In this document: piece by piece, positions 431-6,263 of the stretch
Layout of the letters: every line of letters starts with the position of its first letter
Position numbering within the stretch: the stretch's first letter is position 1
Source of the DNA: Gemmatimonadota bacterium
GTDB lineage: Bacteria; Latescibacterota; UBA2968; UBA8231
Assembly (NCBI GenBank): GCA_018672475.1
Contig: JABHFS010000120.1
Location: forward strand, 83,664 to 147,663
Length of the DNA stretch: 64,000 nucleotides
Direction of reading: 5' to 3'
Made by a program: the position numbers and the translations under genes
The notes under the pieces: model-generated
Databases searched by the model: none
Seen by the model: only the letters and a program-made list of their open reading frames with translations
Told to the model about the DNA's origin: nothing

Positions 431-506
431 TGGCAGGGCAGACAGGACTTGAACCTGCAACCGCCGGTTTTGGAGACCGGAGCTCTACCAATTGAGCTAC
501 TGCCCT
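431..506 (-). tRNA. tRNA-Trp (anticodon CCA)
   Basis: Reverse complement AGGGCAGTAGCTCAATTGGTAGAGCTCCGGTCTCCAAAACCGGCGGTTGCAGGTTCAAGTCCTGTCTGCCCTGCCA folds as a cloverleaf; CCA end encoded. Confidence 0.95.
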
Positions 507-510
507 ATGC

Positions 511-663
511 CTAGCGGGTTTCCTTGTGCGCCGTGTGCTTATGACAAAAACGACAATACTTTTTGTATTCGACACGGCCAGGTTGGTTCCGCCTGTTTTT
601 GGTTGTTGTATAGTTGCGCCGGCTGCAGATTTCACATTCCAGCGATATTTGATCTCTTGGCAT
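511..663 (-). CDS. rpmG: 50S ribosomal protein L33 (50 aa; absent from the supplied ORF track)
   Basis: ATG at 663 to TAG at 511: [50 protein letters not shown]; CxxC pairs typical of L33; sits between tRNA-Thr and tRNA-Trp/secE. Confidence 0.95.
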
Positions 664-701
664 CGGAACTCGCCGAGTTTAAGTTGGAAGCGCTATAGAA
701 A

Positions 702-777
<76 letters not shown>

Positions 778-808
778 TGCAATTACATGAATTTTTACTT
801 ATTGTATA

Positions 809-885
809 TGGAGCGGGAAACGGGACTCGAACCCGCGACCCCGAGCTTGGAAGGCTCGCGCTCTAGCCAACTGAGCTATTCCCGC
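809..885 (-). tRNA. tRNA-Gly (anticodon TCC)
   Basis: Reverse complement GCGGGAATAGCTCAGTTGGCTAGAGCGCGAGCCTTCCAAGCTCGGGGTCGCGGGTTCGAGTCCCGTTTCCCGCTCCA; CCA encoded. Confidence 0.95.
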
Positions 886-1801: not shown

Positions 1802-4228
1802 TCAATTATGATACTCGTATCTCATATTTGATGCTTCGCGATTTAAATCAAATTGCTTTAGACGACGATAAAAAGTCGCGCGACTCATCCCCATTAAATT
1901 TGCCGCTTTTTGTATATCGCCCTCTCCGCCCCTTAATGCCTCTAAGTACAATTGGCGCTGGGCTTCGTCAGCTTGCTGTTGTGCCTGCTCGAAAGTGGTC
2001 ATTGCCCTATCGTTCCCGTCTATATCATTGATAAAGGCGTTCAGGTGTGGGGGTAAATCTTCCACGGTAATGGTCCGCCCTTGAACCAATGCCACTGCAT
2101 GCTCGACCGCATTTTCAAGTTCGCGCACATTTCCAGGCCAGTCGAACTGGCTCATCTTGTTTATGGTCGGCTCGTCGACCCCAACGACAACCTTTCCATT
2201 GCGTTCGGCAAAAATATGCACGAATCGCCGGATAAAGAGCGGAATATCCTCGCGACGTTCATTCAGAGCAGGTATCTCGATTGTAATCACATTAAGACGA
2301 TAGAGCAGATCGCGACGAAAACGTCCTTCCGCTACAGCTTGCGGCAGATCCCTATTCGTCGCTGCAATCAACCGGCAGTTGATGGGAATCGTGCGATCCC
2401 CACCGACTCGCACAATCGCCTTTTCCTGTAACACACGCAGCAATTTAACTTGTACATCTGCCGGCATCTCACCAATCTCATCGAGGAACAGGGTGCCACC
2501 GCTTGCCAGTTCAAACTTGCCCAATCGCCCTTTTTTACTCGCACCCGTAAATGCCCCTTCGACATAACCAAACAACTCGCTTTCGATCAAATCCCGCGGC
2601 AGGGCTGCACAATTGACAGCGAGAAAGGGGCCCTCGCTATAGGCACTCGCACTGTGAACAGCCTGGGCAAAAACCTCCTTGCCAGTTCCCGTCTCACCCT
2701 GGATAAGAATATTGGAGCTAGTACTGGCAGCAATACGGGCCAATTCGACCGTTTTATGCATGATGGCGCTCTGGCCAATAATATCTTCGAAGGAATACGT
2801 GCGCTGGACGCCGATCACCCGATTGACCAGACGGCCGACTTCACCCATTTCGCGAAAGGTCAACACCGCACCGGCAGCACCGGTCGTTCCTTCCATAATC
2901 GGCTGTAGGTTGGCCATCGCCGCCACCTTACCAGATGCCGTATTGAGCGTCACGACCCGATTGCTAAACTGCCCGCCCGTGTCCAACCATTCGCGCAACG
3001 GAGGTTTATCCTCGACCAGTTCGTCAATATGAATTTGGGGCGTCTTTTTGGCTTCTACACCTAATATCCTTAAACCGACAGTGTTGATCTCTTCGACAAA
3101 ACCATCACGATCAACTGCCAATAGTGCATCAGATATTGATTGTAGGAAGGCTTGTGAGCGACTGTAGAGCGCACGTAATTGACTGGCCTGATGTTTCTCT
3201 GTGCGCACTAATTCCTGCAACCGCCCCGTGAGGCGAATATCCTCGATTTCAGCCGCGATCTGACTCGATAAGGCAAAAAGCATATCCAAATCATCAATGC
3301 TAAAAAGACGCCGCTCCGTGCCCAAAGGGACAATCTTGTCGAAAAGCGTTAGCGTCCCAACAACCCGTTCTTCCAACACCAACGGCACGCACGCCAACGA
3401 TGACCCCATCGCCTGCGGATCACGGGACGCCCGGACGTCGTCAATCATGATCGGCTCACCCGATGCCGCCACATATTCGGCGATACGCTGCTCGTAAAGC
3501 AAATCGAAGGAGTTATCCGTTTCAGTCACAACCGTCGCCAATGCCAAGGTACCGTCTTCCACCAATAAACGTACAGCCGACCCTTTCGCCCGGAGAGCCT
3601 CAGCCGCCAAGGAGGCGATCAATTCTAACGACTCATCCAATCCCAAACCCGAGTTCATCGCCTGGCCCAACTCGTTTAAGGCCTGCAGCTCCCCCGTGCG
3701 GCGGTTCATATTCTCAAAAGTTTGTACCGCGCTGACCAACGTCCGGATACTACTACCAACTTCCCCTTCCAGCATCGCGATTTCCCCTGGAACAAAACAG
3801 CGGCCAGGTCTGCTTTGCAGGTTAAATACACCGGATAGATCTTCGCCATGACCAAAGGGGACGGCCACAACGCTATTGTCGGACGGTTCCTCACCGACAA
3901 GGAAAACCGCACGCGGATCCATCGCCATATGGGCGACCTGTATCGTCTTGTTATGAAAAACGGCCAAACCGGAAATACCCTGACCGACCCGCAGACGCCC
4001 CCCCTTCACCGCCCCCTGACCGACACAGGCCTCGAGTAAGAGTTTGTCGGAACGTGGTTCGAGTAGGAAAATCGCACAAAGATCCGCATCAAAGCACTCG
4101 GAAATCAAACCCGCCATCGCGCCCAAGCTCTCCGACAATGACCTGGGTTGGGCTATCAACTCAAGCGCAGCTGCCCAAAATTCAGCTCTTCCATTCAGCA
4201 TATCAGCACTGGCCATATTCGATCTCAA
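1802..4228 (-). CDS. Sigma54-dependent Fis-family transcriptional regulator (GAF-GAF-PAS-AAA+-HTH); ATG may be 4216, 4228 is TTG
   Basis: Walker A GETGTGKE, GAFTGA loop (VEGAFTGASKKG), C-terminal Fis-type HTH (AANLMGMSRATFYRRLKQF). Confidence 0.93.
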   Translation of the reverse strand: MRSNMASADMLNGRAEFWAAALELIAQPRSLSESLGAMAGLISECFDADLCAIFLLEPRSDKLLLEACVGQGAVKGGRLRVGQGISGLAVFHNKTIQVAHMAMDPRAVFLVGEEPSDNSVVAVPFGHGEDLSGVFNLQSRPGRCFVPGEIAMLEGEVGSSIRTLVSAVQTFENMNRRTGELQALNELGQAMNSGLGLDESLELIASLAAEALRAKGSAVRLLVEDGTLALATVVTETDNSFDLLYEQRIAEYVAASGEPIMIDDVRASRDPQAMGSSLACVPLVLEERVVGTLTLFDKIVPLGTERRLFSIDDLDMLFALSSQIAAEIEDIRLTGRLQELVRTEKHQASQLRALYSRSQAFLQSISDALLAVDRDGFVEEINTVGLRILGVEAKKTPQIHIDELVEDKPPLREWLDTGGQFSNRVVTLNTASGKVAAMANLQPIMEGTTGAAGAVLTFREMGEVGRLVNRVIGVQRTYSFEDIIGQSAIMHKTVELARIAASTSSNILIQGETGTGKEVFAQAVHSASAYSEGPFLAVNCAALPRDLIESELFGYVEGAFTGASKKGRLGKFELASGGTLFLDEIGEMPADVQVKLLRVLQEKAIVRVGGDRTIPINCRLIAATNRDLPQAVAEGRFRRDLLYRLNVITIEIPALNERREDIPLFIRRFVHIFAERNGKVVVGVDEPTINKMSQFDWPGNVRELENAVEHAVALVQGRTITVEDLPPHLNAFINDIDGNDRAMTTFEQAQQQADEAQRQLYLEALRGGEGDIQKAANLMGMSRATFYRRLKQFDLNREASNMRYEYHN

Positions 4229-4295: not shown

Positions 4296-4766
4296 TCAGC
4301 GCGTTATTTTAATTATCTTATAATGCAGTTGGCCGGCGGGTATTTGAATTTCAACCTCTTCCCCCTCTTCGTGCCCCAATAGCCCCTTCCCGATCGGCGA
4401 AACCGTCGAGATCTTCCCCTCTTCAAAATCCGCTTCTTCCGGTGCCACAAGTGTATAGGTGAGCTGGCGTGGATTCTTGAGGTCCTCCAATTCAACCGTA
4501 GCGCCGATATAGACTTTGTCTTCCGGAATCGACTCGTGCTCGAGCAAACGGGCGCGGCTCAGTGTATCTTCGAGTTTGTCGATGCGCCCCTCGATAAAAT
4601 GCAACCTTTCCTTTGCCGCTGCATACTCGGCATTTTCGGACAAATCGCCAAATTCCCGGGCAACCTTTAGGGACTTGCGAACCGTCGGCCGCTCGACCTC
4701 TTTGAGTTCTTTTAGTTCCCCCTGGAGCTTCTCGTAGCCGTCTCTCGAAAGATATACTTCACTCAT
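4296..4766 (-). CDS. greA: Transcription elongation factor GreA
   Basis: MSEVYLSRDGYEKLQGELKELK...FGDLSENAEYAAAKERLHFIEGRI...; ATG at 4766 behind GAGG. Confidence 0.95.
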   Translation of the reverse strand: MSEVYLSRDGYEKLQGELKELKEVERPTVRKSLKVAREFGDLSENAEYAAAKERLHFIEGRIDKLEDTLSRARLLEHESIPEDKVYIGATVELEDLKNPRQLTYTLVAPEEADFEEGKISTVSPIGKGLLGHEEGEEVEIQIPAGQLHYKIIKITR

Positions 4767-4808
4767 TGCCAACCTCAAACGGAGAAGAATAAAGCGCTTA
4801 ACCTACAG

Positions 4809-4838
4809 AAAAAGCGGAAGCGACCAACCGCTTCCGCT
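4809..4838 (-). terminator. Leader terminator/attenuator upstream of greA
   Basis: On minus strand AGCGGAAGCG-GTTGGT-CGCTTCCGCT followed by TTTTT; lies upstream of the greA ATG. Confidence 0.7.
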
Positions 4839-4855
4839 ACCTAAACTCTACCTGC

Positions 4856-4884
4856 AATATACTACACTCAACTATTAGATGCAA
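4856..4884 (-). promoter_or_regulatory. Putative sigma70-type promoter for greA leader
   Basis: Minus strand TTGCAT-N17-TATATT; predicted start ~4849, about 11 nt before the leader hairpin. Confidence 0.55.
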
Positions 4885-4991: not shown

Positions 4992-6263
4992 ATGGCACTA
5001 AACCTACTCCATTTCGCCGATCTCCATTTAGGCGTCGAAAACTACGGGCGTATAGACCCGGGTACCGGTCTGCATTCTCGAGTCCGGGATTTCGCCGCCA
5101 GTTTGGCAACCGCTTTTGACTTCGCAATCGAGGAAGAAATTGACCTCGTGCTATTCGCAGGTGACATGTACAAAACCTGCGATCCGACACCAACCCATCA
5201 ACGCGAATTCGCCCTGCAACTCCACCGCCTGCAAGAAGCGCGCATCCCGATTGTATTGATCGTGGGCAACCACGATGCCCCGGTCGCCTTCGGCAAAGCA
5301 ACCTCAATCGACATCTTCAGTGACTTGCAACTGGCCGGAACCCATGTAGTCCGCCGTCCGGAGATCCTGCGAGTAGAAACGGCGAATGGTCCAGTGCAAA
5401 TCGCAGGGCTGCCCTGGCCGACACGCAATATACTGCGCACCCATGACGAATACCGCGAACTACCGCAAGAAGAGATCACCGCGGCGATACAGGAAATCTG
5501 CGCTGCCCAGATCGACGAGTTCGCCCGCCAACTCGATCCAGCCGTGCCGGCCGTGCTCGCCGGCCATCTTGCGGCCGCCGACGCCGTATTCTCCGGTTCT
5601 GAACGCACCGCCATCATCGGCCACGACCCCATCCTGTTGACCAGTACACTCGCCAACCCATCCTACGATTACATAGCCCTGGGCCATATCCATAAATACC
5701 AAGACCTCAATAGGGGCCAGGATCCGCCCGTAGTCTATTCGGGTAGCCTGGAACGTATTGACTTCGGTGAGGAGAAGGAAGACAAGGGCTTCTGCCTAGT
5801 TCATATCGAGGACGCCCCAGATATGCCGAGGGGCCGCGCGACGACCTTTGAATTCGTCCCCGTCCCGGCCCGGCGTTTCACGACGATCCGCTTGCAGGTC
5901 GGCGAGGGCGAGGATGCCACCGAACGCATCGTCGCCGCCTGCGCCGATATCGACCTCACCAACGCGGTCGTCCGCGTCCTCTATGACCTGCCCGCAGGCT
6001 ATGCCGTTCCCATCGACTTGCAACAAGTGCGCCAAGCGCTAGCTGCAGCTTATCACATCGCCTCTATCCAACCCCAATTCGCAACGGTCGAACGCCAGCG
6101 ACGAGCGGAGATCACCGAGGACCTCGGACTCGGCGAGGCCCTTGACCGCTATATCGACAATAGCGCAGACTTGCAAGAGCACCGGCAGGAACTCAAGAAT
6201 TATGCGCTGCAACTCGAGCGCGAACTCGACCTCGGCGAGGCGACAGAGGCCAACGACGTATGA
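4992..6263 (+). CDS. sbcD: Nuclease SbcCD subunit D (metallophosphoesterase)
   Basis: HFADLHLG, FAGDMYKT, VGNHD, ALGHIHKYQ motifs; overlaps sbcC by ATGA. Confidence 0.95.
   Translation: MALNLLHFADLHLGVENYGRIDPGTGLHSRVRDFAASLATAFDFAIEEEIDLVLFAGDMYKTCDPTPTHQREFALQLHRLQEARIPIVLIVGNHDAPVAFGKATSIDIFSDLQLAGTHVVRRPEILRVETANGPVQIAGLPWPTRNILRTHDEYRELPQEEITAAIQEICAAQIDEFARQLDPAVPAVLAGHLAAADAVFSGSERTAIIGHDPILLTSTLANPSYDYIALGHIHKYQDLNRGQDPPVVYSGSLERIDFGEEKEDKGFCLVHIEDAPDMPRGRATTFEFVPVPARRFTTIRLQVGEGEDATERIVAACADIDLTNAVVRVLYDLPAGYAVPIDLQQVRQALAAAYHIASIQPQFATVERQRRAEITEDLGLGEALDRYIDNSADLQEHRQELKNYALQLERELDLGEATEANDV

Follow-up and report, generated by a model that had tools for sequence, protein, structure and literature searches.

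Does the greA gene of a Latescibacterota bacterium limit its own transcription by means of a terminator placed ahead of its start codon? The question arises from a 64,000-nt stretch of contig JABHFS010000120.1 (assembly GCA_018672475.1; hereafter the window), in which a hairpin followed by a T-run lies on the minus strand between a promoter-like sequence and greA. An element of this kind in the leader of E. coli greA, GraL, was reportedly described by Potrykus in 2010. In E. coli the GraL terminator lets only about one third of the transcripts through, the short RNAs measure 37-59 nt with imprecise 3′ ends, and GraL is needed in cis for autoregulation by GreA, which lowers greA expression through this element in a manner requiring GreA catalytic activity (Dylewski 2019; PMC6829880). 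In those sections of the survey by Naville and Gautheret (2010; PMC2965389) on which we draw, attenuators in greA leaders are described for Proteobacteria, bacilli and Clostridia, each with a clear antiterminator, and greA/rnk is the 7th-ranked attenuated gene family; the same sections do not mention Latescibacterota or Bacteroidota among the greA-leader attenuators.

The greA locus and its leader

The greA gene of the window (4296..4766, minus strand) encodes a 156 aa protein with both Gre domains and the catalytic-tip residues D41 and E44, and it is the sole GreA/GreB gene that we found in the genome (assembly of 6.6 Mb in 210 contigs). Upstream of its leader lies a gene for an sbcD-like nuclease (a metallophosphoesterase; 4992..6263, plus strand) with sbcC behind it; the gene upstream of greA is a divergent ORF of ~420 codons both in the window and in most relatives from genera 1, 2 and 4. 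The sequence-only reading of this DNA had pointed out that sbcD is on the opposite strand. This is indeed so, and since sbcD is divergent, the hairpin cannot serve as the terminator of an upstream gene.

Just 3′ of greA there is a further long perfect hairpin, AACTCCCGGAAAGGC...GCCTTTCCGGGAGTT (4277-4235, minus strand). Several genera of the family, though not genera 6 and 7, retain the core CTCCCGGA...TCCGGGAG of this downstream terminator, so that conservation of the stem is not wholly peculiar to the leader. A gene for a GAF and sigma-54 activator follows immediately downstream of greA (1802-4228, minus strand); the same adjacency is seen in L040 and seemingly in L018 and L021. The window also contains a cluster of three tRNA genes (434-885, minus strand), which were the only hits of an Rfam search of the whole window; no family matched the greA leader at the gathering threshold.

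Followed on the minus strand (4884 to 4764), the leader begins with the promoter that had been proposed from the sequence, TTGCAT (-35 element, 4879..4884) and TATATT (-10 element, 4856..4861) at a spacing of 17 nt. With 8 of 12 matches to the consensus it is unremarkable taken alone, and a promoter scan demanding at least 9 of 12 did not list it; TTGC and TAnATT are invariant, and the spacer has 17 nt, in all 23 relatives considered below. Transcription is predicted to start at ~4849, the first 11 nt (4839..4849) being a predicted single-stranded 5′ segment. There follows a hairpin with a perfect 10-bp stem (4838-4813), made up of the 5′ arm AGCGGAAGCG (4829..4838), the loop GTTGGT (4823..4828) and the 3′ arm CGCTTCCGCT (4813..4822), and then TTTTT, the T5 tract of an intrinsic terminator (4809..4813). 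The Shine–Dalgarno-like GAGG (4773..4776) and the ATG (4766) come after it, and the hairpin thus has the perfection, the distance of ~11 nt from the predicted start and the place ahead of both signals that had been claimed for it. The predicted fold has a stability of about -18 kcal/mol, and the short RNA is predicted to measure ~41 nt, with its 3′ end at 4809 or a few bases past it.

When the 225-nt greA–sbcD gap was shuffled 20,000 times with its dinucleotides preserved, a perfect 10-bp stem with a loop of 3-8 nt and an immediate T5 arose in 40 cases, and a looser terminator criterion was passed by 23 of 400 shuffles. Because the latter amounts to ~6%, the single sequence of the window is only suggestive, and it is conservation that decides.

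Conservation of the leader within the family

From 25 genomes of the family greA was recovered in 23, providing 23 leaders from six genera. Every one of them carries TTGC-N19-TAnATT followed by GCGG[A/G]AGCG-loop-CGCTTCCGC-TTTTT, the 3′ arm deviating by one missing base in L023 and by one changed base in L024. The hairpin first proposed for a single genome is thus kept in orthologous greA leaders, together with its promoter and T-run, throughout the family sample. Among ten representatives the divergence is 2% in the stem arms, 0% in the T-run, 6% in the -10 and 23% in the -35 element, as against 74% in the promoter spacer and 64% at fourfold sites of greA. Since the stem arms have changed so little by comparison with the latter two, the stem is, to judge from these rates, under purifying selection for its letters, beyond pairing. 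The loop varies from 4 to more than 20 nt and its sequence drifts freely, while the 5′ single-stranded segment, counted from predicted starts, has 6-24 nt in the relatives and an unconserved sequence that differs even within a genus; the predicted short RNAs of the relatives have 37-69 nt. As a control for strand, terminators were scored in the family leaders on the same and on the opposite strand, giving 23 versus 0.

The stem-loop-stem pattern has one site in its own genome, and 21 family genomes each have exactly one copy of the stem with its T-run, in every case on the 5′ side of greA. Among 64 Latescibacterota genomes searched there was no copy away from those greA sites, and the reversed pattern used as a control gave zero matches. 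With a single copy, the stem does not represent a terminator sequence that recurs commonly in the genome, and its conservation in the family together with its uniqueness per genome excludes an origin by chance.

The distance from the T-run to the ATG is 28-71 nt across the family leaders, and in most members of genus 7 it is 28 nt, too short for a promoter and a leader. We looked for a promoter downstream of the hairpin and saw none that was credible between the T-run and the ATG of the family leaders, where the best promoter-like pair had 7 of 12 matches at positions touching the start codon. Given the little space left and the lack of a credible second promoter, the greA mRNA must, by the layout of these leaders, read through the terminator, which would make it an attenuator by position.

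Fold predictions from the predicted start sites revealed no antiterminator in most family members, including genera 1, 2 and 4, where the structures ahead of the terminator reach only -1.5 to -4.3 kcal/mol. In genus 7 a competing fold ahead of the terminator is possible, again from the predicted start sites. A candidate antiterminator was encountered in another family, f4, where each of the 11 leaders of genus 16 (L107-L116 and L118) has, 31-48 nt upstream, the sequence ATAGAC, which can base-pair with the stem at GTCTAT.

Leaders in other lineages

A terminator-like hairpin near the greA ATG is also found in 23 of 30 leaders from other Latescibacterota families, with unrelated stems and under loose criteria that some shuffled sequences pass as well; for comparison, a slightly stricter criterion finds such a hairpin in 8 of 91 other long leaders of the genome to which the window belongs. 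Families f3 and f4 have a common stem starting with GTC, in which 5 of 9 pairs show two-sided changes and all cells are paired, although the arms were picked to maximise pairing and the fully paired count is biased upward. The strand control for these other families gave 23 same-strand versus 12 opposite-strand hairpins; it is probably weakened by the A-run before the genus-16 hairpins, which would mimic a terminator on the opposite strand. In the f4 leaders just named, the A-run ahead of the hairpin gives a bidirectional look. In family f7 greA either lies close behind a co-directional gene or has no clear hairpin.

In an evenly drawn sample of 70 Bacteroidota greA leaders (L157-L226), 56 meet the terminator criterion, compared with 9 on the opposite strand and a mean of 4.7 in shuffled sequences. 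These hairpins mostly lie 20-90 nt before the greA ATG and have clade-specific stems; GGACCCTT...AAGGGTC(T)TTTT was seen in many Bacteroidales leaders (L049-L103, mostly Bacteroidales). Since the gene upstream of greA is often co-directional in Bacteroidales, it is possible that some of the Bacteroidota hairpins terminate that gene at its 3′ end, although the majority are situated 20-50 nt ahead of the greA ATG. Nor is the design universal, because the examples of greA leaders from Betaproteobacteria, Synergistota and Nitrospirota mostly have no terminator hairpin.

Discussion

We consider it probable (roughly 0.8) that the greA leader hairpin acts in cis as a termination-based attenuator of greA, be it regulated or not. 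RNA polymerase would start near 4849, and the GC-rich hairpin with its five U residues would form within ~40 nt; part of the polymerases would stop at the T-run and free an RNA of ~41 nt while the remainder would read on into the greA mRNA. Such termination, presumably efficient yet partial, would limit the output of GreA. By analogy with E. coli, the share of read-through might answer to the level of GreA or of a partner factor and so close a feedback loop; that GreA itself feeds back on attenuation is a tentative proposal, to which we give somewhat less than an even chance. Since the letters of the stem are nearly frozen beyond what pairing demands, what recognises the hairpin sequence may be the elongation machinery or a protein, for example NusA or GreA-bound polymerase.

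The resemblance to E. coli GraL that had been suggested is supported for the layout, a design that may be convergent or anciently conserved, but not for the sequence. Both leaders have a promoter, a short 5′ segment, an early intrinsic terminator, greA downstream and a divergent gene upstream, and the ~41 nt predicted for the short RNA of the window lies beside the 37-59 nt of GraL. On the other hand, the upstream gene is dacB in E. coli and sbcD in the window, two promoters are present in E. coli while one was recognised here, and the distance from hairpin to ATG is 102 nt in GraL as against 46 nt. The stems, GACCTGGGACTTGTACCCGGGTC in E. coli and GCGGAAGCG...CGCTTCCGC in Latescibacterota, are unrelated; comparing them by eye we saw no sequence homology, and a common RNA family is not supported.

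With the greA leaders treated in the sections of PMC2965389 used here, the window leader shares an intrinsic terminator in the 5′ leader, in sense orientation, less than 300 nt from the greA start and closer to it than to the gene upstream, as well as conservation across species at greA. It differs in that those leaders have a clear antiterminator and most leaders of the present family have no visible one. In this respect it is closer to the rimP leader of the same sections, a short terminator with conserved stem letters, mostly without an antiterminator and inferred there to be recognised by a protein, probably NusA. The conserved stem letters and the lack of an antiterminator in most members are common to both; the gene, rimP, and its stem, GGGc...gCCC, are different.

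In the unregulated variant of this attenuator the terminator would be constant, a fixed fraction of read-through setting a low level of greA and sensing nothing. Genera 1, 2 and 4, with neither an antiterminator nor room for a sensor, and the strength of the stem (about -18 kcal/mol) would fit this well, but a weaker promoter would have the same effect at a lower cost, the near-invariant letters of the stem go beyond what pairing needs, and greA is autoregulated through the corresponding leader in E. coli (PMC6829880), which together make a constant terminator rather doubtful, if far from negligible. It is quite improbable that the released RNA is chiefly a small RNA acting in trans, as was proposed for GraL on nudE (PMC6829880). 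Beyond that precedent, RNAs of 37-69 nt with a 3′ hairpin and a U-tail are predicted to be stable, yet their only single strands, the 5′ segment and the loop, vary in length and letters within a genus, and the conserved letters are locked inside the stem. Because the single-stranded 5′ part drifts in this way, the short RNA is unlikely to have been conserved for base-pairing in trans.

A hairpin this close to the 5′ end and with conserved letters could instead stabilise the greA mRNA or bind a protein and not terminate transcription at all, but the T5 tract directly after the stem in 23 of 23 leaders is explained by termination and not by stabilisation, and we give this reading very little credence. 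Even less can be given to an insulator or to chance. The hairpin with its T5 would stop transcripts entering from upstream too, but the upstream ORF is divergent in the window and in most relatives of genera 1, 2 and 4, and the conserved promoter sits between that ORF and the hairpin; chance is contradicted by the conservation.

Attenuation in greA leaders is already known; what is new here is its probable occurrence in Latescibacterota as a phylum, the near-invariant stem and the breadth in Bacteroidota. In the literature that we found, the experimental record of GreA autoregulation through a leader terminator comes from E. coli only, and the mechanism is unsolved there. A distant lineage with a very short leader and a near-invariant stem narrows the question of how GreA is sensed, since any sensor would then have to act less than ~40 nt from the start, on the stem. 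One may speculate, as a rather unlikely generalisation, that greA leaders across Bacteria share a self-adjusting early termination in which GreA-bound polymerase or NusA reads the letters of clade-specific frozen stems, GreA thereby adjusting its own read-through with no antiterminator or ligand taking part. The surveys of Bacteroidota and Latescibacterota suggest that the design of the greA leader is wider than reported, and its clade-specific stems are natural variants on which such ideas may be tested.
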